In this document: positions 25,555 to 39,076 of the stretch, one piece after another | Position numbering within the stretch: position 1 is the first letter of the stretch | Layout: each line of letters starts with the position of its first letter | Assembly (NCBI GenBank): GCA_030434875.1 | Contig: JAUISW010000001.1 | Location: 1,189,501-1,253,500, forward strand | From: Lachnospiraceae bacterium C1.1 | GTDB taxonomy: Bacteria > Bacillota > Clostridia > Lachnospirales > Lachnospiraceae | Length of the DNA stretch: 64,000 nt | Direction of reading: 5' to 3' | Made by a program: the position numbers and the translations under genes | Notes under the pieces: model-generated | The model's input: the letters and a program-made list of their open reading frames with translations, nothing else | Told to the model about the DNA's origin: nothing | The model's database searches: none

Positions 25555-26571
25555 TCATGCCAGTTTATCCAAAAGCTCATCTATATCACAGTTAATGCAT
25601 ACGCTCCTATCTTCTATCTCTTTGGGACAGTATGCCTCTTTGTAATTCAAGCATGCATATGTAGCTTTTTCATTTTCCATTGTCATTTGCCAGAATGGAT
25701 ACTTGATTATTACTGGAGTATTGCCTCCTACACCCAATTCCATATATAAAATATTCATATCCTTATGCCTGCTGATAAAATCTGCATAGGCTGCCGATGC
25801 TCTTCTCCAGCCTTCATCCTCTAAGAAATTGTCATCTGCTCTTAAATTTGTGGTCATATCGGAACCATCATCAGGGCATTTTGGTATCATCTCTGAAGGA
25901 ATTTCCATTTTTATATTTTTATCCTCCGGAGCTATAAATACACCATTGGCATCTTTAATAAATCCCTGGGCTTCCATTGCGGACATTACCCATTCTTCAT
26001 TATCGTAGGTCTTTTTAATCTCGGGATTCACACTTTGAAAAAGCCCATAATCACCCTGAGTATAAAATAATCTCTTTTTATCAAAACCGGCTTTCTGAAA
26101 ACAATGATCCACATTTGTTGTTATGACAAAATAGTCTTTATCCTTAACAAGCTGATAAAGCTTTTCGTAGCTGTCTTTCGGAGGATCAATGTATCTGTTT
26201 ACATATATGTATCTAGCCCAATATGCCCAGAAAATCTCTTTTTGGGGATATGGATAAAATCCACCGGAATACATTTCTTTAATTCCGAATCTTTCCTGAA
26301 AATCAAAAAAATATTTTTCAAATCTCGGCCCTTTATAAATAAAACCGGCAGCGGTGGACATTCCGGCCCCTGCGCCAATTATGACCGTATCGATCTCACT
26401 AAGTGTATCTTTTAAATTCTGAACCCTTTCATGCAGACTCCCATTTCCAAATGAAACTCCTCTGCTGAATTGTCTCACTGCAGCAAGTCCTTTAGAAATT
26501 GTTTCCTGGTATCCATTTGGCATGGTCTCAAATAATTGTCTTATCAATGCTTTTTTACTAATATCAAACAT
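25555..26571 (-). CDS. Sir2-family NAD-dependent enzyme, class M-like
   Basis: This 338-residue sirtuin has the NAD-binding loop GAGAGMSTAAGF (residues 66-77), FYPYPQ and the TTNVDHCFQKAGF motif (151-163). In classical sirtuins the catalytic His follows as ..HG; here that place reads FYTQGDYG, with Gln 172 instead of His. Established work on macrodomain-linked class M sirtuins (SirTM) reports this type of replacement and protein ADP-ribosyltransferase rather than deacylase activity. A C-terminal CINCDIDELLDKL ends the protein. No macrodomain or GcvH-like partner is adjacent. The RBS is AAAGGA. Confidence 0.82.
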   Translation of the reverse strand: MFDISKKALIRQLFETMPNGYQETISKGLAAVRQFSRGVSFGNGSLHERVQNLKDTLSEIDTVIIGAGAGMSTAAGFIYKGPRFEKYFFDFQERFGIKEMYSGGFYPYPQKEIFWAYWARYIYVNRYIDPPKDSYEKLYQLVKDKDYFVITTNVDHCFQKAGFDKKRLFYTQGDYGLFQSVNPEIKKTYDNEEWVMSAMEAQGFIKDANGVFIAPEDKNIKMEIPSEMIPKCPDDGSDMTTNLRADDNFLEDEGWRRASAAYADFISRHKDMNILYMELGVGGNTPVIIKYPFWQMTMENEKATYACLNYKEAYCPKEIEDRSVCINCDIDELLDKLA

Positions 26572-26703
26572 CTTGCATCCTTTATATGATCAAAATATTT
26601 CCAATAAAAATACAAAAGTTATTTCTGTATTTTTATTTTAACAACTTTTTACATTAATAATATAACTTTATAAAATACAAAATATAAGTAGGCACTTTTT
26701 TCT

Positions 26704-26904
26704 GACTGTACCCACGGGCAAGCCCGTGGGGTTCTGATTGGCAAGTGTAGCTTGTAATCGTACATCATTTTCAGACTTTGGAGTTACAAGTGTAAATCTG
26801 TTTGAATCAGGACTTTTATTACCAAGTAGTCCAACGACCACATTAGCGGTAAATTTTTGCTTTTTAGCAAGGAAGTACAGTCAATCTCCCTGATTATTAA
26901 GTTG
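26704..26904 (-). ncRNA. Candidate TnpB guide RNA (omega/reRNA) region
   Basis: The 200 bases between the tnpB stop and the element end form a plausible folded RNA. A closing stem GACTGTAC/GTACAGTC (26704-26711 and 26875-26882) encloses CTTGTAA/TTACAAG pairing, a TTGC/GCAA hairpin and the terminal hairpin CCCACGGGC/GCCCGTGGG. TnpB guide RNAs are known to be made from just this place and to end at the element's right end with the guide beyond it. No expression evidence is available here. Confidence 0.5.
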
Positions 26905-28515
26905 TTAAGCTATTTTAATACCGCTGTTTAATATTTTAAGTTTATTAGCCTTAATCCAAGTGATTAGGGCTTTTTCTCTGTTGTATTGTTCCTCAAATTT
27001 TGCGTTGCATTTATTTTTATCTATATCATGTGTCATATGATCATAGCAGTATAGCAGGAACGATGAATACCAATCTCTCTGTACTTCAGTTCCATCATGT
27101 AGTTTAAACAATCTGTCGGACAGTTTCTTTTTTATATAATCATCTGCTGTATGGTCATACTGCGAAGCCCTGTAGTTGTTCGGGACTTCTATATATGTGC
27201 CACCTGTGGCTTTGAATTTCTTCTCTACATTTGACTGAAAACCTCCGGGACATCTGTTTTTTATGGATTTACCGAACCGCTTTTTCCTGTTAAATCTACC
27301 CTTGTCGTTCTTAGTGGTTTCCATGGCTCGCTTCATGAGCTTACTTGCATTTTTAGGCTCAGTAACAAATACATCTCCAAGACTCCGCAGGTGATTTACA
27401 TCCTCGTTTATTGCAAGCTTTCTGTTTACAGCATTGATACGACATAGTTCAGAATGTCTGGCTCTCAGTTTCTTATAATGATTTGAGTATTTCCAAGTCT
27501 TATGACCTTTCTTTACAGTACCATCATAATTGTAATTTTGTGGGTTGGTTGCTCTCCTTGACCTGTCCATAGCACGATAAAGCTGACGTTCTTTCCGTTC
27601 GGAAGTCTGTATACTGTTGCCACGTTCTGCAAGGTTCTTCAGACCGACTTCCGTATCAGATGTATATGCAACTGTCTGTGTCCCGATGTCAGCACCTATC
27701 ATGCCCCTGCCATACTTATGACGGGGATTACCATGCTTATCATATTTAGGTTTTGCCTTACCCTCGATAGTCAGATGCAGATATACTCTGTATTTACCTC
27801 TTATTATTTTTGGAACCAATGTTGCATAGCAGGGTCTGTATGTATCCATGCAGTAAGCATCCTCGATTAACGTGCTGACAGCCTTTTTGTCAATGACTTC
27901 AGGTTCGGAAAGATACGACAGGACAGCATTTAATTCGTCCTGCTGGAACCTGTCGTTTATCTGTATCCCAAAGACAGTTTTTCCAAGTTTGAACCATAGA
28001 CCGTTATCCTTTACAGATATCGGTATGCCACGGTTTATCTGTTTTGCCCGTATACAGGGAAGCTCCCCATATTTCGAGAAATGTATGCTTTTACCATTAC
28101 CATAAAGGCAATTTTCCATGCCTCGCCAAACATCTTCAGCTTTGGTTAGAGCAAAGACAGCATCGACACCATACTTTTTGCCTATTGGAATCATAGATTT
28201 TCTACAGTGATCCCATGTGACATTATAGGATTTCTGCATTTCATTAAGCTGATCAGCAAGAATTTTGCGTTTAGCTTTATCTCCTGTATTACCATACAGG
28301 GATAATAGTTTGCGATACCTCTTTGTACGAAAAAGCTGATCATAATTTTTTCTCATAAGACCAACAAGTTCATTGCCTGCCTTGCGGATTTTATCAGAAA
28401 GAACCACGATCTTAAGCATATCAGAATAAGGCATATCAGTCTCAGCGACTAAAATATGCCTGTCAGAAAGTTTATGATATTGTTTCAGAATCTTCTTGTA
28501 TTCTCCATCAATCAT
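26905..28515 (-). CDS. tnpB: TnpB-family RNA-guided nuclease-like protein
   Basis: This 536-residue protein starts at the ATG at 28515 (GAGGAGC upstream), overlapping the tnpA stop by 8 bases. RuvC-like motifs are visible: IGADIGTQTVAY (Asp ~276), VFVTEPKNA (Glu ~386) and VQRDWYSSFL (Asp ~481). The usual zinc ribbon (two CxxC pairs between the second and third motifs) is absent; that stretch reads ASQYDHTADD..KKLSDRLFKLHDGTEVQRD. It is longer than common ~400-residue TnpB because of a long N-terminal helical part. The active-site acids suggest an active nuclease. Confidence 0.85.
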   Translation of the reverse strand: MIDGEYKKILKQYHKLSDRHILVAETDMPYSDMLKIVVLSDKIRKAGNELVGLMRKNYDQLFRTKRYRKLLSLYGNTGDKAKRKILADQLNEMQKSYNVTWDHCRKSMIPIGKKYGVDAVFALTKAEDVWRGMENCLYGNGKSIHFSKYGELPCIRAKQINRGIPISVKDNGLWFKLGKTVFGIQINDRFQQDELNAVLSYLSEPEVIDKKAVSTLIEDAYCMDTYRPCYATLVPKIIRGKYRVYLHLTIEGKAKPKYDKHGNPRHKYGRGMIGADIGTQTVAYTSDTEVGLKNLAERGNSIQTSERKERQLYRAMDRSRRATNPQNYNYDGTVKKGHKTWKYSNHYKKLRARHSELCRINAVNRKLAINEDVNHLRSLGDVFVTEPKNASKLMKRAMETTKNDKGRFNRKKRFGKSIKNRCPGGFQSNVEKKFKATGGTYIEVPNNYRASQYDHTADDYIKKKLSDRLFKLHDGTEVQRDWYSSFLLYCYDHMTHDIDKNKCNAKFEEQYNREKALITWIKANKLKILNSGIKIA

Positions 28516-28921
28516 GATTTTTCTGCTCCTCAATGTATCTAATTACCGTAGCTTCGCTTATATGCCCTACTGTTGATACAAAATATCCTTTTGACCACAA
28601 AACGCCGCATCTTGCATAGAATTGTTTAAGCTGCGGAAATGTCCTGAATAGTTCTATTGCACTGATACTTTTAAGAGTTCTGACAACATCACATGGTGCA
28701 ACAGTCTGTGGGACATCTATGAAAATATGTATATGGTCAGGCATTACTTCAAGTGCCTTAATACGATAATTATAATCATTACAGATTTTTTGAAGTATCA
28801 GCTTGAGTGTATCTTCAACATTACCTTTTAATACTGAAAATCTAAATTTAGGACACCATATAATGTGGTACTGTATCAGATATTTGCAATGCGAAGCACT
28901 ATGATATTGCTCCTCACTCAT
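28508..28921 (-). CDS. tnpA: IS200/IS605 Y1 transposase TnpA
   Basis: This 137-residue HUH single-strand transposase has the metal motif MPDHIHIFID, a strand YLIQYHIIWCPKFR and the catalytic-tyrosine helix ATVIRYIEEQ. The length is normal (~130-150). It overlaps the RHH gene upstream and tnpB downstream, so all are made from one transcript. It cuts and joins single-stranded ends that are recognised through the subterminal hairpins. Confidence 0.92.
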   Translation of the reverse strand: MSEEQYHSASHCKYLIQYHIIWCPKFRFSVLKGNVEDTLKLILQKICNDYNYRIKALEVMPDHIHIFIDVPQTVAPCDVVRTLKSISAIELFRTFPQLKQFYARCGVLWSKGYFVSTVGHISEATVIRYIEEQKNHD

Positions 28922-29096
28922 TGTCCTTAACTCCTAACTGATATTTTTCCTGAATCCCCCTACGCATCAGGTCAAGAAATGTTATGGTTTTACCTTCCTC
29001 AACGGAATAAATACGTGCAAGGTTTTCCAGTTCCTTTTTCCATTCGGAAGGAATAGAAATATTGATCTGTACATTATTACTTTTAGGTCGTGCCAT
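28914..29096 (-). CDS. Ribbon-helix-helix-like protein of the IS605-type element
   Basis: This 60-residue protein shows VQINISIPSEWKKELENLARIYSVEEGKTITFLDLMRRGIQ, a ribbon-helix-helix layout of a small DNA-binding dimer. Its RBS GGAGGGG is strong and its end overlaps the tnpA start. It may autoregulate the transposition operon. Confidence 0.7.
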   Translation of the reverse strand: MARPKSNNVQINISIPSEWKKELENLARIYSVEEGKTITFLDLMRRGIQEKYQLGVKDNE

Positions 29097-29549
29097 CTAT
29101 CTGCCCCTCCACACTTTCAATAATTCACCAGCTGTAAAATCGGGTTCCAAACTTTCTCCTCTTAAAAGAATTCTCACAAACTTTGCATCAAATTTATCGT
29201 CGTGAGCCATTGTACCTTTAGCAATCTCAAATGCATAGGAATCCATCAGTTTTACAAAAGGCTTGTTCTTTTCCATCCATTGTTCAATATGTCGCTTTTT
29301 TGCAAGATGCTCCTTGTCTTTATTCTTGTCTCTATTTTTATATGCAAAAGCGGCATATGCCTTTTGTGCTGTTTTATATCCATACCCCTGAGCATCATCA
29401 AGAACCTCACCGGTATCGGTTGACACTATACAATATCTCATTTCAAATGTGTCATATGCGGGAGAATTATTCCAAGGTTCTTCCTTGTCCACAACTGCAT
29501 CATGATGTGTGGTTACTTTGTATTGGATTGCTTTGTAGGTTTTATCCAT
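29097..29549 (-). CDS. Unknown protein, first gene of the IS605-type element
   Basis: This 150-residue charged protein contains FEMRYCIVSTDTGEVLDDAQGYGYKTAQKAYAAF, followed by a Lys-rich helix (NRDKNKDKEHLAKKRHIEQWM). It ends with FTAGELLKVW. The stop touches the RHH start. No clear RBS is seen. The YGYKTAQKAYAA segment resembles small proteins linked to element control, but no family is recognised. Its position in the transcript suggests an accessory transposition or regulatory function. Confidence 0.6.
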   Translation of the reverse strand: MDKTYKAIQYKVTTHHDAVVDKEEPWNNSPAYDTFEMRYCIVSTDTGEVLDDAQGYGYKTAQKAYAAFAYKNRDKNKDKEHLAKKRHIEQWMEKNKPFVKLMDSYAFEIAKGTMAHDDKFDAKFVRILLRGESLEPDFTAGELLKVWRGR

Positions 29550-29887
29550 AATTTTTGTGTACCATATGTATTCGTTACATAGATTATATATTATTTCTAT
29601 GTATGTGTCAAAAAGAAAACGGCTTCATCCCACAGGCGAGCCTGTGAGTTTTCGCCTACGTTAAGCTAAAATTTACTTTATAACCTGATCATTGACTTTA
29701 TCAAAAGTTAAAAATATATGACTAATGTTTATGATCTATTATATCGATATATTTTTAAGAATATGTGCTTTTCCATAGATTATTAAATTATCTCATAAAT
29801 TTGGTATTCTTGAACCTGTTGTTTGTTTTATGCAAAAGTTCTCGACACAACTGTCTTAATTTATTTTAGCTCAGGGTGATAAAGATT
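29550..29887. other. Intergenic AT-rich stretch
   Basis: It contains the outer hairpin of the IS605-type element (29631-29646), then about 240 bases of AT-rich sequence that must hold the HD-GYP promoter. No ORF or further repeat was seen. Confidence 0.6.
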
Positions 29888-31234: not shown

Positions 31235-33196
31235 TCAGATATTTTTACCTGCTTCATATCCCTCATGGGTTGCATGAGTTACCTTTCTTGCGCGGATTGC
31301 ATCACCTACTGCAGTGTAAGAAATTCCTGCTTTATCAAGCTCTTCTTTAAGCTCCTCATTTGAGCGATATCCGGTAGCAACAACAACTGTATCTGCAGCC
31401 ACAAATTTTTCATTGCCGTCAGCATCTTCATATGATACGCCGTCATTCTTAATCTCAAGGACCTTAACGCTCGTTAAAATATTTACTTTACGCTTCTCTA
31501 AGGATTCTCTTAAATGCCACTTGACAGCAAGTGCTGCATCTTTAGCTATTTCAGGCATCATTTCCAATATAGTTACATTCCTTAAAAGCTGGGCTAAAAA
31601 ATGAGCTGTTTCTGAGCCAACCTGTCCGCCACCTATAACTACACAATTCTGACCCGGAAGTACGCGGCCTTCAAGTAATTCCTGTGCATTTGTAACGATA
31701 GATGATTCCTTAAGACCCTTGATAGGCGGTACTGCAGGATGCGATCCGGTTGCAACTATTACATTATCGAACTGGCCTGCTTTGATCATTTCAGCATTAG
31801 CTTCAGTATTATATTTAAACTCTACACCAAGCTTTTCACACTGAACTCTCTGCCATACAAGGAAATCTGTGATCTCACCCTTTGTTGGCGGAATTGATGC
31901 AGTATAGAAATTACCACCGTTATGATCATTTCTTTCGTAAACTGTAACTTTATGTCCTGCTTTCGCTGCTGCAATTGCTGCATAAAGACCTGCCGGACCT
32001 GCACCGATAACTGCAACCTTCTTTGATTCTTCTGCTTTTTTGATCTCGCCTTCATATTCGTGACCAAGGGTAGGATTTAATACGCATGTAAAAGGCTTAT
32101 TTTCAAAAAGGACACCTTCACAGCCGTCATTACATCCTATACATCTGCGGATATCTTCAAATCGACCCTCTTTTGCCTTGTTAGGCATTCCGGGATCACA
32201 TAAAGAAGCTCTGCCCATAGCTACCAGGTCAGCCTTTCCTGAAGCTAAAATTTCATCAGCGAGAAAAGGATCATTTATTCTTGAAACAGTGATAACAGGA
32301 ACGTTTACAACTTCCTTTATCTGTTTTGCCCAATCAGAGAACCATCCATGTCCACTGTAGCTTGATGCAATATTCAAATCAACAGATAAATAGTTTCCTA
32401 CAGAAATGTGTAATAGGTCAACACCTGCATCAACCATCATACGGGCAATTGCTTTTGTATCTTCTACATTCAAGCCGCCTTCTACAAATTCATCTGCAGA
32501 AAGTCGCATTCCGACAATAAAATCATCCCCGCATTTTTTTCGGACATCAGCGATTATCTCTCTGGCAAATCTTGTTCTGTTCCAGAAATTTCCGCCATAT
32601 TCATCTAATCTTTTGTTAGAATAAGGAGAGAAAAACTGAGTGATCAGATAACCATGTGCACCATGAATTTCAACGCCGTCAAATCCGCATTTCTTTGCAC
32701 GAAGTGCTGTATCTCCATACTTTGTTACCATATCTTTTACTTCTTCTGTTGTAAAAGGAACCGGGATCTCATCCCCAAAAGGACAAAGCATTGCGCTCGA
32801 GGATCTTGTATGACATCCTTCCGGAATCGCACCTTTATGAGTCTGTCTGCCGCAATGATAAATCTGAGCCAGAATTGTTGTTCCATATTTATGAACTCTC
32901 TTTGGAAGTTCTGTGTGGCTTTCAATCTGACCATCGTTCCAAAGACCTGCAGTACAGCTAAATCCATGTCCTTCAGGTGCAACATTATAATCCTCGGTAA
33001 TAATCAGACCCCAGCCACCCTTTGCTTTTGCTTCATGGTAAGCAATATAGCGTTCTGTTGCTGTTCCGTCCTCGTTACAGAAGTTTGTAACCATAGCCGG
33101 TACTGTGAGCCTATTCTTAATCGTATGTCCCTTTGTATCCCTGTAATTTTTCATATCTCTGCAGCGAAGTGCAACATGATGTATTCCTTTTATCAT
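31235..33196 (-). CDS. NADH:flavin oxidoreductase / 2,4-dienoyl-CoA reductase-type enzyme
   Basis: This 653-residue protein has an old-yellow-enzyme barrel (KNRLTVPAMVTNFCNEDG, EIHGAHGYLITQFFSPYSNKR, VGMRLSADEF, VAMGRASLCDP). The iron-sulphur cysteines CIGCNDGCEG and CVLNP follow, then FAD and NAD Rossmann domains (VIGAGPAGLYAAIAAAKAGHKV; VVIGGGQVGSETAHFLA). The family reduces C=C bonds of enoates, dienoyl-CoA or bile-acid-like enones in anaerobes. The first 15 residues (IKGIHHVALRCRDM) are foreign to this family and look like a glyoxalase/VOC start. It lies one base after the radical SAM gene stop. Confidence 0.87.
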   Translation of the reverse strand: MIKGIHHVALRCRDMKNYRDTKGHTIKNRLTVPAMVTNFCNEDGTATERYIAYHEAKAKGGWGLIITEDYNVAPEGHGFSCTAGLWNDGQIESHTELPKRVHKYGTTILAQIYHCGRQTHKGAIPEGCHTRSSSAMLCPFGDEIPVPFTTEEVKDMVTKYGDTALRAKKCGFDGVEIHGAHGYLITQFFSPYSNKRLDEYGGNFWNRTRFAREIIADVRKKCGDDFIVGMRLSADEFVEGGLNVEDTKAIARMMVDAGVDLLHISVGNYLSVDLNIASSYSGHGWFSDWAKQIKEVVNVPVITVSRINDPFLADEILASGKADLVAMGRASLCDPGMPNKAKEGRFEDIRRCIGCNDGCEGVLFENKPFTCVLNPTLGHEYEGEIKKAEESKKVAVIGAGPAGLYAAIAAAKAGHKVTVYERNDHNGGNFYTASIPPTKGEITDFLVWQRVQCEKLGVEFKYNTEANAEMIKAGQFDNVIVATGSHPAVPPIKGLKESSIVTNAQELLEGRVLPGQNCVVIGGGQVGSETAHFLAQLLRNVTILEMMPEIAKDAALAVKWHLRESLEKRKVNILTSVKVLEIKNDGVSYEDADGNEKFVAADTVVVATGYRSNEELKEELDKAGISYTAVGDAIRARKVTHATHEGYEAGKNI

Positions 33197-36139: not shown

Positions 36140-36262
36140 TTATCCATAAGCAAACTCCTCTCTGACGAGCTGCTTTAAGGGGATCATCTCCTCTCCTGTT
36201 GCAGCAGATAATTCCTGCGCTACGTATTTATTGGTTCCTGTAGCACTATAATAAATAATCAT
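36140..36262 (-). pseudogene. N-terminal flavodoxin fragment
   Basis: The ATG at 36262 starts IIYYSATGTNKYVAQELSAATGEEMIPLK, the classical flavodoxin FMN phosphate-binding loop (T/S-x-T-G-x-x), as in clostridial flavodoxin/EFR1 proteins. It stops after 40 residues. It begins six bases after the MDR gene stop, so it was once the next gene of that operon. Confidence 0.6.
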
Positions 36263-36267
36263 TCAAA

Positions 36268-37230
36268 TCACTCCATTAAAACTATTATTTTTCCGCCTGC
36301 TTTACCTGATTCCTGCATTTGCATTGCTTCTTTAATATTTGAAAATTTATATACAGCTCCATAATGAGGCTTAAGATTATGTTTATTAAAGAATGAAAAC
36401 ATATCATTTACTGTTCCCTGCGTCGGATAATTAGAATAAAAACCTGTAAGGTAAACTCCGTTTGGAATATCTTTTATAGGATCAAAATTATTTAAGCTAT
36501 AAATCCCACCAAGGATGCCGGTCTGACAGACAATTCCGCCTTTATCTACTGCAGTCAGGCTGTCTAAAAGATTCTTAGGACCTACCAGATCAAGAATTTT
36601 ATTGATACCGCTGACTTTTCCGGTCAATTTCCCATCGTCAAGCAGAACCTCATCTGCCTCAGACAAAGCCTTCAAATATTTTTCTTTGTGTGTTGTTGCT
36701 GTTACTTTACAGTCAAGAGCTTTTGCGATCTGTATTGCAGCATATCCCAATGCACAGGATGCACCTCTGATAAGAAGACTGTCATCAGCCTTCAGATTTA
36801 ATGATTCAAAGAGTGAACCCCAGGCTGTAAAATAAGTTTCAGGAATAGCCCCCAGCTCCTCCCAGGTCAGATCACTATCAATCTTAAATAGATGATGAGA
36901 AGGGACCAAAGCATATTCAGCATAGCTTCCGTCAAACGAACGTCCCATTCCACCCATCATTGCTATGACCTTATCTCCGGTCTTAAAATCACTGTCAGAG
37001 GGATCGACTATTTCACCAACAGCTTCAATTCCCGGAATTACCGGCTTTTTTATGTAGTCGTATTTGATCTCTTCTTTACGAAGGATCAATTCAGAATGAT
37101 TCATTCCAAAAGCTTTTACCTTGATCAAAACCCATCCCGGACTGACTCCGGGTATTTTTATTTCATCTATATTTATGTCTTTAATTTCAACAGCTTCTTT
37201 AAGAACAATTGCTTTCATTTTTTTATTCAT
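36268..37230 (-). CDS. MDR-family zinc-type alcohol dehydrogenase/quinone reductase
   Basis: This 320-residue protein has a GroES-like domain (PGWVLIKVKAFGMNHSELILR, PVIPGIEAVGEIVD) and a Rossmann domain (SLLIRGASCALGYAAIQIAKALDCKVTATT). The structural- and catalytic-zinc cysteines are lacking, which fits NADPH:quinone-reductase-like members. The RBS is CAGGAG. It starts 16 bases after the radical SAM/SPASM maturase, so it belongs to the peptide-modification operon. It may reduce the product or supply reducing power; that is inference from context only. Confidence 0.84.
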   Translation of the reverse strand: MNKKMKAIVLKEAVEIKDINIDEIKIPGVSPGWVLIKVKAFGMNHSELILRKEEIKYDYIKKPVIPGIEAVGEIVDPSDSDFKTGDKVIAMMGGMGRSFDGSYAEYALVPSHHLFKIDSDLTWEELGAIPETYFTAWGSLFESLNLKADDSLLIRGASCALGYAAIQIAKALDCKVTATTHKEKYLKALSEADEVLLDDGKLTGKVSGINKILDLVGPKNLLDSLTAVDKGGIVCQTGILGGIYSLNNFDPIKDIPNGVYLTGFYSNYPTQGTVNDMFSFFNKHNLKPHYGAVYKFSNIKEAMQMQESGKAGGKIIVLME

Positions 37231-37245
37231 GAATTCAGCTCCTGT

Positions 37246-38298
37246 TTATTTAATAAATAAGTCACTATTCATGTCTGCCCAGCATTGAGGATCATCGCTG
37301 TAAAAGCTGCCATTTGTTCCGTTGGCTACGGCCGGACAACCTCTGCACCAGGGCTTAAGCTTACATTTACTGCATTTTTCAAACTTTTCGTAATCTCTGT
37401 ATTTTTCAAAGCTTGTTTCCCAGAGATCTGCCATCCTGTCTAAGAAGACGTTTCCTACTTTACTGTCAGCAACACGTCTGCAGGCATAAATATCACCGGT
37501 AGGAAGAATAGTTGCATGGCAGTTTCCACAGTTACAGCCGCCGTATATCATTCCGGCTTCAGCATCTTCAGGGATTTTGAATTCCCCGATTTCATATTCA
37601 TATAAAGTCCAAAGATGATCTTTTTTATTAAAATAAGTGTCACATCCTTCAGCTTCATATTCCTTAAATTTTTTATCACATGCAGCAAGTAGGTCTCTAT
37701 ACTCCTGCGCTGTCATCGACGCATCAAGCTCTCCGCCGCTTGGTACATATCTTGCAAAAGCAAAAATATTTGCCCCTGCTTTTACTACTTCGTCGATAAT
37801 CCCCGGTACTTCCATTCTGTTTGTTTTAGAAACTGTAGTCATGATAATGCTTCGGATTCCTGCTCTGTTTAAGCATCCGATCTTTTCTAAAGTACAGTCA
37901 TAGGAACCGGGTTTTCTAAACCAGTCATGGTTTTCACGAAGTCCGTCTATGGACATCTGATATCTTTCGCATCCATACCATTTCAATTCTCTGCATACCT
38001 GGTCATTTAAATGAAAAGGATTGCCCAGTATCGTGAATTTAATCCCATGATCATGCATGAGATCCAATAATCTCCAAAAGTCAGGATGTAATATCGGATC
38101 TCCACCTGTTATATAAAAATAAGGAGTACGTCCATAAACCTCGCAGAAATCCAGACAATTGTAGAAGGTATCTTCCATTTGCTGCCAGCTCATTGAAACA
38201 AGACAGTTATGATTTCCTGCTGAATATATATAGCAGTGCTTGCATCTTTGGTCACACTCATCTGTAATATGCCATTGAAAAGAAAAAAAAGGTTTCAT
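37246..38298 (-). CDS. Radical SAM/SPASM peptide maturase
   Basis: This 350-residue enzyme has the radical SAM motif ECDQRCKHCYIY (Cx3Cx2C at 15, 19 and 22) and FYITGGDP as the GGDP strand. SPASM cysteines follow at the C-terminus (GGCNCGNC..GDIYACRR, then KCSKCKLKPWCRGCP and QCW), holding auxiliary 4Fe-4S clusters. This build is that of sactipeptide/ranthipeptide-type maturases, which link Cys sulphur to a carbon of another residue. It lies 84 bases downstream of a 48-residue Cys-repeat peptide gene, its probable substrate. The RBS is GGAGG. Confidence 0.9.
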   Translation of the reverse strand: MKPFFSFQWHITDECDQRCKHCYIYSAGNHNCLVSMSWQQMEDTFYNCLDFCEVYGRTPYFYITGGDPILHPDFWRLLDLMHDHGIKFTILGNPFHLNDQVCRELKWYGCERYQMSIDGLRENHDWFRKPGSYDCTLEKIGCLNRAGIRSIIMTTVSKTNRMEVPGIIDEVVKAGANIFAFARYVPSGGELDASMTAQEYRDLLAACDKKFKEYEAEGCDTYFNKKDHLWTLYEYEIGEFKIPEDAEAGMIYGGCNCGNCHATILPTGDIYACRRVADSKVGNVFLDRMADLWETSFEKYRDYEKFEKCSKCKLKPWCRGCPAVANGTNGSFYSDDPQCWADMNSDLFIK

Positions 38299-38330
38299 AA
38301 ACGTCCTCCATTAGTTTCTGATAGAATTAA

Positions 38331-38358
38331 TCCTCCGATCCATATCTGAACCGGAGGA
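38331..38358 (-). terminator. Possible attenuating hairpin between peptide and maturase
   Basis: TCCTCCG-N14-CGGAGGA lies in the 84-base gap between the peptide gene and the maturase gene. There is no strong T run, so it may only lower read-through or protect the peptide mRNA. This would favour peptide over enzyme. Confidence 0.45.
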
Positions 38359-38382
38359 CAACAGCGACAAATTGTATTTTAA

Positions 38383-38529
38383 TTACTTGTTATCGCCTGC
38401 ACCGCAAGCTGTTCCACAAGCAGCAGCCTTTTTCTCGGGCTTTCCGTCACCTGCACCACAAGCTGTTCCGCAAGCAGCAGCCTTCTCAGCTTTTTCGTTA
38501 ACCCATCCGTAAAGATTTGATAATGCCAT
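38383..38529 (-). CDS. 48-residue Cys-repeat RiPP precursor peptide
   Basis: A short ORF starts at the ATG at 38529, seven bases after CAGGAGG. A leader (MALSNLYGWVNEKAEK, 1-16) precedes two exact core repeats AAACGTACGAGD (17-28 and 35-46), joined by GKPEKK. Cysteines lie at 20, 24, 38 and 42. Each repeat has CxxxC and CxxxD spacing; CxxxD is the thioether motif described for freyrasin-type ranthipeptides. It matches what I recall as ACGX-repeat peptides. It is immediately upstream of the SPASM maturase in the same operon, and an HxlR regulator is divergent. Confidence 0.85.
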   Translation of the reverse strand: MALSNLYGWVNEKAEKAAACGTACGAGDGKPEKKAAACGTACGAGDNK

Positions 38530-38611
38530 AATTTTGTCCTCCTGTATCAATCTTATTTTTCAGAAGCGTTATTGCTTTCTGTGATTTCAATATAACCCAT
38601 GCAAAAAATCA

Positions 38612-38655
38612 AAAAAAGTACGCACTTTTTTATTACCCGGTTACTTTTTTGTAAC
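38612..38655. promoter_or_regulatory. Candidate HxlR operators in divergent promoter
   Basis: Two inverted repeats lie between the peptide gene and the HxlR gene: AAAAAAGT-ACGC-ACTTTTTT (38612-38631) and GTTAC-N6-GTAAC (38640-38655). Their location fits control of the RiPP operon by the HxlR protein. Which one is bound is not known. Confidence 0.5.
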
Positions 38656-38752
38656 TTATCGACTTATGCTTTTTATAATGTTATATTGATTGTAAGATTA
38701 AAATCTGATATAGGATGAAATTTTTAACCTTAGTTTTTGAAAGGAGTCTTTT

Positions 38753-39076
38753 ATGAAGACAAAAGATGAACTTCCGGAATGTCCTGTAGCTACAACCGTC
38801 AGTCTCATAGGAAGTAAATGGAAATTGCTCATAATGCGAAATCTTCTGGCTCGCCCCTGGCGCTTTAATGAATTGAAAAAAAATCTGGACGGGATCAGTC
38901 AGAAAGTACTCACTGACTCGCTCCGCTCAATGGAGGATGACGGAATAATTACCCGTACCGTTTATCCCGAAGTACCTCCCAGAGTTGAATATGCTCTTTC
39001 GGAACTCGGCGAATCAATGCGCCCTATAATAAAATCAATGGAAGAATGGGGCGTTGATTATAAAAGTAAGATCTAA
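38753..39076 (+). CDS. HxlR-family transcriptional regulator
   Basis: This 107-residue winged-helix protein has the family's conserved Cys near the start (ECPVATTVSLIGSKWKLLIMRNLL) and RFNELKKNLDGISQKVLTDSLRSMEDDGIITRTVYPEVPPRVEYALSELG. HxlR proteins often sense thiol-reactive or aldehyde stress through that Cys. RBS AAAGGAG. It is divergent from the RiPP operon, its likely target. Confidence 0.9.
   Translation: MKTKDELPECPVATTVSLIGSKWKLLIMRNLLARPWRFNELKKNLDGISQKVLTDSLRSMEDDGIITRTVYPEVPPRVEYALSELGESMRPIIKSMEEWGVDYKSKI

Follow-up and report, generated by a model that had tools for sequence, protein, structure and literature searches.

In Staphylococcus and Streptococcus, the class M sirtuin SirTM ADP-ribosylates lipoylated GcvH-L, with Glu24 and Asp27 implicated, and a macrodomain reverses this modification; OYE binds the lipoylated GcvH-L protein, and OYE genes accompany SirTM in GcvH-L operons (passages of PMC4518038 and PMC11490716). 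The extended SirTM operon of these genera consists of the genes for GcvH-L, LplA2, a Zn-macrodomain, SirTM, OYE and LLM. To our knowledge, lipoylated GcvH-L is the only known SirTM target. PapB, the maturase of freyrasin-type ranthipeptides, makes Cys-Asp/Glu thioethers in CX3D/E motifs and accepts Cys-Xn-Asp with n from 0 to 6 (PMC9413430). Regulators of the DUF24 family sense quinones, diamide and HOCl through an N-terminal Cys, and in one such regulon the nitroreductase YodC takes part in detoxifying quinones and diamide (passages of PMC6943732). Here we describe an operon of the ACGX system, which has points in common with each of these. The operon is located in a stretch of 64,000 nucleotides of Lachnospiraceae bacterium C1.1 (contig JAUISW010000001.1, positions 1,189,501 to 1,253,500), hereafter the window, and encodes a Cys-rich repeat peptide (AcgA), a radical SAM/SPASM maturase (AcgM) and an MDR-family oxidoreductase. 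What is new, as judged from gene content, is an operon-level link of ACGX to SirTM and Zn-macrodomain and to a DUF24-type regulon, this genome included.

The three genes are arranged in the order acgA, acgM, MDR gene, with 84 bases between the first two and 15 bases between the maturase stop and the MDR gene, after which the operon ends (Table 1). AcgA begins with MALSNLYGW and contains two exact AAACGTACGAGD units holding four Cys in all; each copy comprises CGTAC (CX3C) and CGAGD (CX3D), and the DNA of the two copies is 92% identical across 38 bases. The start codon of acgA is preceded by the ribosome-binding site aggagg. A preliminary description of this DNA had placed a 48-residue peptide with two such repeats and a good ribosome-binding site, a radical SAM/SPASM enzyme, an MDR oxidoreductase and a divergent HxlR regulator here, and open reading frames (ORFs) and domain matches bore this out in full. 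It had also treated peptide and maturase as one system and suggested searching the peptide against ACGX-repeat models. The arrangement goes beyond chance: both proteins score over the respective cut-offs, and an ACG-repeat ORF precedes the maturase at 77 of 80 related loci, the other three having just 77, 106 and 113 bases upstream. By profile score, AcgA and AcgM are thus members of the already named ACGX system (TIGR04341/TIGR04340). The family is not new, because both scores exceed the NCBIfam cut-offs and RefSeq already names acgA and acgM. The core of the window's locus does not differ in any respect from this system, of which it represents a short form (peptide, maturase, MDR), with SirTM 9.7 kb off.

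Table 1. Features of the window (position 1 is the first base of the 64,000-nucleotide stretch)
Feature	Position	Strand	Evidence
acgA, ACGX-repeat peptide, 48 aa	38383..38529	-	TIGR04341 51.8 bits, cut-off 28
acgM, radical SAM/SPASM maturase of the ACGX system	37246..38298	-	TIGR04340 572.7 bits, cut-off 400; Radical_SAM and SPASM Pfam matches
MDR-family NAD(P)H:quinone reductase-like gene	36268..37230	-	ADH_N and ADH_zinc_N_2 Pfam matches; PIG3 quinone reductase model 144.6 bits, below cut-off 296.8
acgA-acgM spacer with 13-bp hairpin	38299..38382	-	z -2.6; candidate partial terminator or mRNA stabiliser
HxlR/DUF24 regulator, N-terminal CPV	38753..39076	+, divergent	PF01638 109.3 bits; NF047364 RrpB 118.8 bits, below cut-off 175
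Candidate HxlR operator GTTACAAAAAAGTAAC-CGG-GTAATAAAAAAGTGCGTACTT	38616..38655	-	Motif in upstream regions of relatives
SirTM-like sirtuin, 338 aa, QG for catalytic HG	25555..26571	-	179.6 bits to 5a3a (best solved relative); 499 bits to ACGX-locus SirTM profile
Candidate HxlR-type operator core AAAAAAGTGCCTACTT	26686..26701	-	115-130 bases before SirTM start; 1 mismatch of 16
Insertion sequence (IS) element	26702-29684		Ends near 29684 and 26702, placed by comparison with other copies in the genome
IS200-type Y1 transposase in IS element	28508-28921		128.7 bits
542-aa ORF in IS element	26905-28533		TnpB-like by position only, no Pfam match; two small ORFs also in the element

The window's genome has a single TIGR04341 match and a single TIGR04340 match over the cut-off; in the Pfam copy used for the window scan the peptide matched no family. 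In public databases we found 833 homologues, Dorea included; ACGX-repeat peptide is the name given to homologues there, and the 120 listed carry Pfam PF27855. The ACGX family is widespread, and named but uncharacterised; the peptide is made by gut and rumen bacteria. Among the literature matches listed, with subscription journals mostly outside coverage, we found no reported ACGX function and no paper on this system or on its link to SirTM, ADP-ribosylation and a DUF24-type regulon. The word "radical" does not occur in the main text of the SirTM papers PMC4518038 and PMC11490716.

For comparison, we scanned one genome per species for relatives of the maturase, which gave 201, and kept the best 80. 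This 80-locus set holds the loci nearest to the window's maturase, is mostly made up of metagenome-assembled genomes (MAGs) and was not thinned of near copies; three loci (L039, L043, L047), for example, carry an identical peptide that is counted three times. Four MAGs labelled Succinivibrio, Prevotella, Spirochaetales and Sphaerochaetaceae (L019, L030, L033, L054) carry maturases 79-86% identical to that of the window, reflecting binning errors or transfer. Peptide statistics were based on 69 distinct peptides with a MAL start, leaving out four lacking MAL and identical copies. Together, these hold 418 cysteines, a number to be read with the duplication origin of the repeat units in mind, which makes Cys counts non-independent. 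The residue after Cys is Gly in 413 cases, and position Cys+4 is Asp in 234, Cys in 137, Glu in 30 and another residue or absent in 17. The claim that the CxxxD motif is significant therefore holds, since Cys+4 is an acidic residue in 264 cases, and Asp, Glu or Cys in 401 of the 418. Peptides contain 3 to 10 Cys in a variable number of units, and 65 of the 69 contain CX3C. A far ACGX-like peptide is encoded on a plasmid of the sheep rumen archaeon Methanosphaera sp. ISO3-F5 (L191 6673-8025), next to a maturase annotated as two pieces and an MDR gene. Its units, ACGTE, ACGGE and ACGSE, place the acid at Cys+3 (Cys-X2-Glu), so a Cys with an acid three or four residues on is a recurring feature.

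Cysteines with an acidic partner at fixed spacing, which (with Thr as an alternative partner) are a mark of ranthipeptides, are thus found in ACGX peptides, and AcgA resembles the freyrasin-type ranthipeptides in its repeated CX3D/E units and SPASM maturase. The preliminary description had pointed to CxxxD as the thioether motif of freyrasin-type ranthipeptides and considered two Cys-Asp or Cys-x crosslinks per repeat plausible. Membership of the freyrasin/PapB group is not supported by the enzyme: AcgM scores 65.8 bits against the PapB model, for which the cut-off is 340, and is therefore only distantly related to PapB. In addition, and unlike the freyrasin-type systems, many ACGX units are CX3CX3D, and no recurring exporter was found. 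After TIGR04340, AcgM comes closest in NCBIfam to the models for SbtM (157.5 bits) and for heme b synthase (119.5 bits), without reaching the cut-off of either. An alignment of AcgM from the window and 31 sampled relatives revealed 77-90% identity to the window protein and invariant radical SAM and SPASM cysteines.

We next consider the gene content of the related operons. Upstream genes were counted in 61 loci with 1.5 kb of upstream sequence, and downstream genes, on the same strand, in 56 loci with at least 4 kb downstream, using profiles made from the loci themselves (E 1e-8). A divergent HxlR gene is present in 59 of the 61 loci. Downstream, MDR (32 loci), nitroreductase (33) and PNPOx-ferredoxin (29) genes are found, and each of the 56 loci has at least one of them. 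The MDR enzyme and HxlR control, taken in the preliminary description to set this locus apart, are accordingly the rule in the family, with MDR itself in 32 of the 56 loci. SirTM is encoded downstream in 35 loci, a macrodomain in 34, either in 37 and both in 32; the preliminary description had missed this link. An independent RefSeq annotation of a Roseburia plasmid gives the same picture: HTH, acgA, acgM, nitroreductase, 4Fe-4S protein, protein-ADP-ribose hydrolase and Sir2. 4Fe-4S domains are carried by neighbours of ACGX loci. At two loci, L029 and L062, the gene immediately after acgM encodes a 3-keto-disaccharide hydrolase-like domain.

The ADP-ribosylation pair was identified from matches of single members of each class. 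The macrodomain of L048 scores 371.4 bits against the protein-ADP-ribose hydrolase model NF003163 (cut-off 272), and its best PDB match is 8rsi (293 bits). The zinc-site motif in the catalytic loop, for which the pattern GC..P.H.C was taken by eye from the 8rsi alignment, is present in 36 of the 38 macrodomains of the ACGX set scoring >200 bits. The SirTM of L050 has no Pfam match and weak NCBIfam sirtuin matches only, and was identified by its likeness to a solved SirTM. QG replaces the catalytic HG in all 42 SirTMs scoring >250 bits, that of the window included.

The SirTM gene of the window lies on the same strand as the operon, 9.7 kb downstream of the MDR gene. In a quick tree of 76 SirTMs, its product clusters (SH-aLRT 99) with the SirTMs of L012, L013 and L015, all from ACGX operons in records named Butyrivibrio, Pseudobutyrivibrio or Lachnospiraceae. 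The right end of an IS element falls within a few bases of the candidate operator of this gene. It is likely, as judged from these sequence features, that the window SirTM belongs to the same regulon as the acgA operon and formerly lay beside it. A whole-genome search detected SirTM-like genes at three places and a weak sirtuin at a fourth. One of these other SirTM genes (L131, G000:C1:2327000-2340000) lies beside a macrodomain gene, a PNPOx-ferredoxin-like gene and an Rrf2 regulator gene, without ACGX. The genome has no GCV_H match, so that the GcvH-L gene which characterises the extended GcvH-L SirTM operon was not found, and the window SirTM, if active, probably has another target.

The regulator contains an HxlR domain with an N-terminal Cys, as DUF24 proteins do; CPVA is present near the start in 61 of the 68 HxlR ORFs of the set, and CP in 64. 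The motif AAGTACGCAC or its complement was found in 60 of 71 distinct upstream regions, usually beside a GTTACAAAAAGGTAAC-like half. Allowing up to two mismatches, the operator core occurs at 10 sites in the window's genome versus 14 for the reversed control. By number, therefore, two-mismatch sites are no evidence, and the case rests on position and on the three sites that deviate from the core at no more than one base; one of these three is located 52-68 bases before an AMP-binding-enzyme gene. At L173 and L174 of this genome (G000:C1 near 157353 and 1187709), a two-mismatch core separates a divergent HxlR gene from a thioredoxin or flavin-reductase gene, which supports the motif as an HxlR-family site. 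A survey of 40 stretches (529 kb), of which 38 belong to other genomes, gave 12 cores with no more than one mismatch: eight in ACGX or HxlR loci, two heading SirTM loci without ACGX (L133, L142) and two elsewhere. The acgA-acgM spacer contains a stable hairpin at most loci: among 65 distinct spacers 40-200 bases long (window and relatives), 55 have z < -2.

The combination of an N-terminal-Cys regulator with nitroreductase and quinone-reductase type genes resembles the YodB/HypR/CatR-type DUF24 regulons of Bacillus. In the ACGX operons, these genes are joined by one for a ribosomally synthesised and post-translationally modified peptide (RiPP) and often by an ADP-ribosylation pair. On this gene content, the operon looks like a thiol-stress module. 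With the GcvH-L SirTM operons it has in common a QG SirTM, a macrodomain of the same family, flavin oxidoreductases and stress control. The GcvH-L operon also encodes a small carrier that receives a sulphur group, a part that AcgA would play in the ACGX operon. The differences are that a radical-SAM-modified Cys peptide would replace GcvH-L and LplA2, and that the regulator is of the HxlR/DUF24 type.

Starting from gene content, upstream motif, hairpin, Cys-acid spacing and the identity of SirTM and Zn-macrodomain, all read from sequence, we infer regulator binding, a redox role, the peptide as SirTM target and every chemical step of the following scheme. The HxlR/DUF24 regulator would sense reactive compounds through its N-terminal Cys and thereby free the divergent acgA promoter, and the hairpin behind acgA would lead to more peptide than maturase. 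AcgM would modify the Cys-X3-Asp/Glu units, most likely to Cys-to-Asp/Glu thioethers, leaving further Cys free. Modified AcgA, together with MDR, nitroreductase and PNPOx-ferredoxin proteins using NAD(P)H, flavin or ferredoxin, would serve as a sulphur redox carrier or electrophile sink. SirTM would ADP-ribosylate AcgA on Asp/Glu or Cys, and the Zn-macrodomain would free it, as with GcvH-L in Staphylococcus and Streptococcus. In many relatives the operon SirTM would do so; in the window, this activity could come from the SirTM gene that stands apart from the operon behind an HxlR-type site. The logic would parallel that of the GcvH-L operon: a small carrier with an enzyme of its own for the sulphur chemistry, flavin or NAD(P)H reductases and control by stress, with writer and eraser unchanged. 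We tentatively favour this reading, in which AcgA is a cytosolic, maturase-modified RiPP that belongs to a thiol-stress operon, acts as a redox carrier or electrophile sink and, where SirTM is present, is reversibly ADP-ribosylated. Its most specific part, that modified AcgA is the substrate of SirTM and Zn-macrodomain, a RiPP in place of lipoylated GcvH-L, is rather doubtful, and AcgA may at present be called a candidate target by analogy. If true, AcgA would represent a second kind of SirTM target and show that a ribosomal peptide can serve as a reversibly ADP-ribosylated intracellular redox carrier. We know of no RiPP regulated by ADP-ribose, so it would be the first. The ACGX operons supply a concrete, small and purifiable SirTM-target candidate from the same operon, and the scheme provides a functional hypothesis for a widespread, named family.

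Co-occurrence was analysed in 196 genomes of the order, with SirTM called at E 1e-40 and ACGX by scores over the cut-off. SirTM is present in 6 of 10 ACGX genomes versus 40 of 186 without ACGX (Fisher p 0.012, a modest value uncorrected for kinship). The physical linkage of SirTM to ACGX would exceed chance, because SirTM is found in just 46 of the 196 genomes. The ACGX-linked SirTMs are clustered yet do not form one clade (10 changes versus 24.8 when shuffled). A SirTM inherited as a single old trait was rejected, since the acgM tree calls for 14 changes between presence and absence, 6 of them forced by starred branches.

Several observations weigh against ADP-ribosylation of AcgA. The 14 changes come near the random expectation, for which shuffling gave a mean of 16.8 and 34 of 500 values as low; four of the ten ACGX genomes lack a SirTM match, and the 40 genomes mentioned above have SirTM without ACGX. 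In 19 of the 56 loci, SirTM and macrodomain are both missing downstream; in three of these 19 (L057, L058, L084), one or both lie upstream, no more than 6 kb away. The window's operon ends with MDR, 9.7 kb from SirTM, and no macrodomain gene was found beside the window SirTM, which thus lacks the adjacency expected of class M sirtuins. GCV_H matches over the cut-off in three of the ten ACGX genomes (one strong, two weak and partial), so GcvH is not absent everywhere. Peptides of loci with (33) and without (18) a SirTM or macrodomain show no difference in Cys, CX3D, CX3E, CX3C or length (p at least 0.105), which counts against a peptide specialised as SirTM substrate. Finally, several SirTM loci without ACGX have PNPOx-ferredoxin plus HxlR or Rrf2 genes, and SirTM may therefore act on something that these operons share. 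The redox part of our reading is firmer than the ADP-ribosylation part, because SirTM is accessory, SirTM pairs occur without ACGX, and the peptides of both classes are alike.

Some of these observations speak for another explanation, a serious possibility though short of probable, in which AcgA is a thioether or thiol redox or electrophile-defence peptide of a DUF24 regulon, and SirTM and Zn-macrodomain are co-regulated neighbours acting elsewhere, for example on a flavin or ferredoxin enzyme. Where ACGX is absent from a genome, SirTM and Zn-macrodomain are likewise found together with PNPOx-ferredoxin and an HxlR or Rrf2 regulator, SirTM gain and loss is frequent, the peptides show no difference between the two locus classes, and an HxlR-type site heads SirTM loci without ACGX (L133, L136, L142). 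What speaks against it is weak: the operon encodes no small carrier other than AcgA, and the PNPOx-ferredoxins score 343-405 bits in four ACGX loci of the order sample (L150, L151, L153, L154) versus 35-216 bits without ACGX, which suggests an ACGX-specific subfamily, although the profile derives from ACGX loci and is biased in their favour. It is improbable that AcgA is instead the precursor of a small redox cofactor, like those of pyrroloquinoline quinone or mycofactocin, for the MDR, nitroreductase and flavin enzymes. That every one of the 56 loci encodes at least one such enzyme would agree with it, as would the 79.8 bits of AcgM against the mycofactocin maturase model (cut-off 265), but 3 to 10 Cys in a variable number of units would be odd for a fixed small cofactor, and no protease recurs among the gene classes or the 25 commonest families of other downstream ORFs.

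The search for recurring functions also bears on two still less probable roles. Besides the gene classes described, we scanned 120 other downstream ORFs of the relatives; among the 25 commonest of the 161 families matched are ABC_tran (3), MFS (2) and MatE (2), and no protease, peptidase or exporter recurs among the gene classes or these 25 families. Likewise, the recurring gene classes include no metal transporter or metal regulator. A metal-binding or metal-sulphur role of AcgA, with Fe, Zn or Cu at its CX3C sites and acidic ligands modified by the maturase, is accordingly quite improbable. The 65 peptides with CX3C and the 4Fe-4S domains of neighbours would fit such a role, but CX3C is weak as a metal motif, which counts against it. 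A secreted antimicrobial ranthipeptide or sactipeptide is very improbable. Cys-rich repeat precursors adjoining a SPASM maturase are what one would look for, but exporter and peptidase do not recur among these classes and families, the maturase is strongly conserved among the 31 relatives while the repeat number of the peptide varies widely, and the regulator is of the stress type. We therefore set the secreted bacteriocin aside. The preliminary description had likewise called an intracellular or redox role possible rather than a secreted bacteriocin, noting no exporter or leader peptidase nearby; none was found among the eight window proteins scanned, and the intracellular redox role is the more likely of the two.

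Some minor observations concern the surroundings of these loci. The SirTM locus L133 contains ABC transporter genes, named by eye. In the window, a short ORF past the MDR gene (36140-36262) has no Pfam match; by eye it resembles the beginning of an EFR1-type flavodoxin and may be a remnant. An OYE ORF (31235-33196) scores 534 bits against the BaiCD model NF041087, below the cut-off of 825, and its first residues resemble, by eye, the start of a glyoxalase-fold protein.

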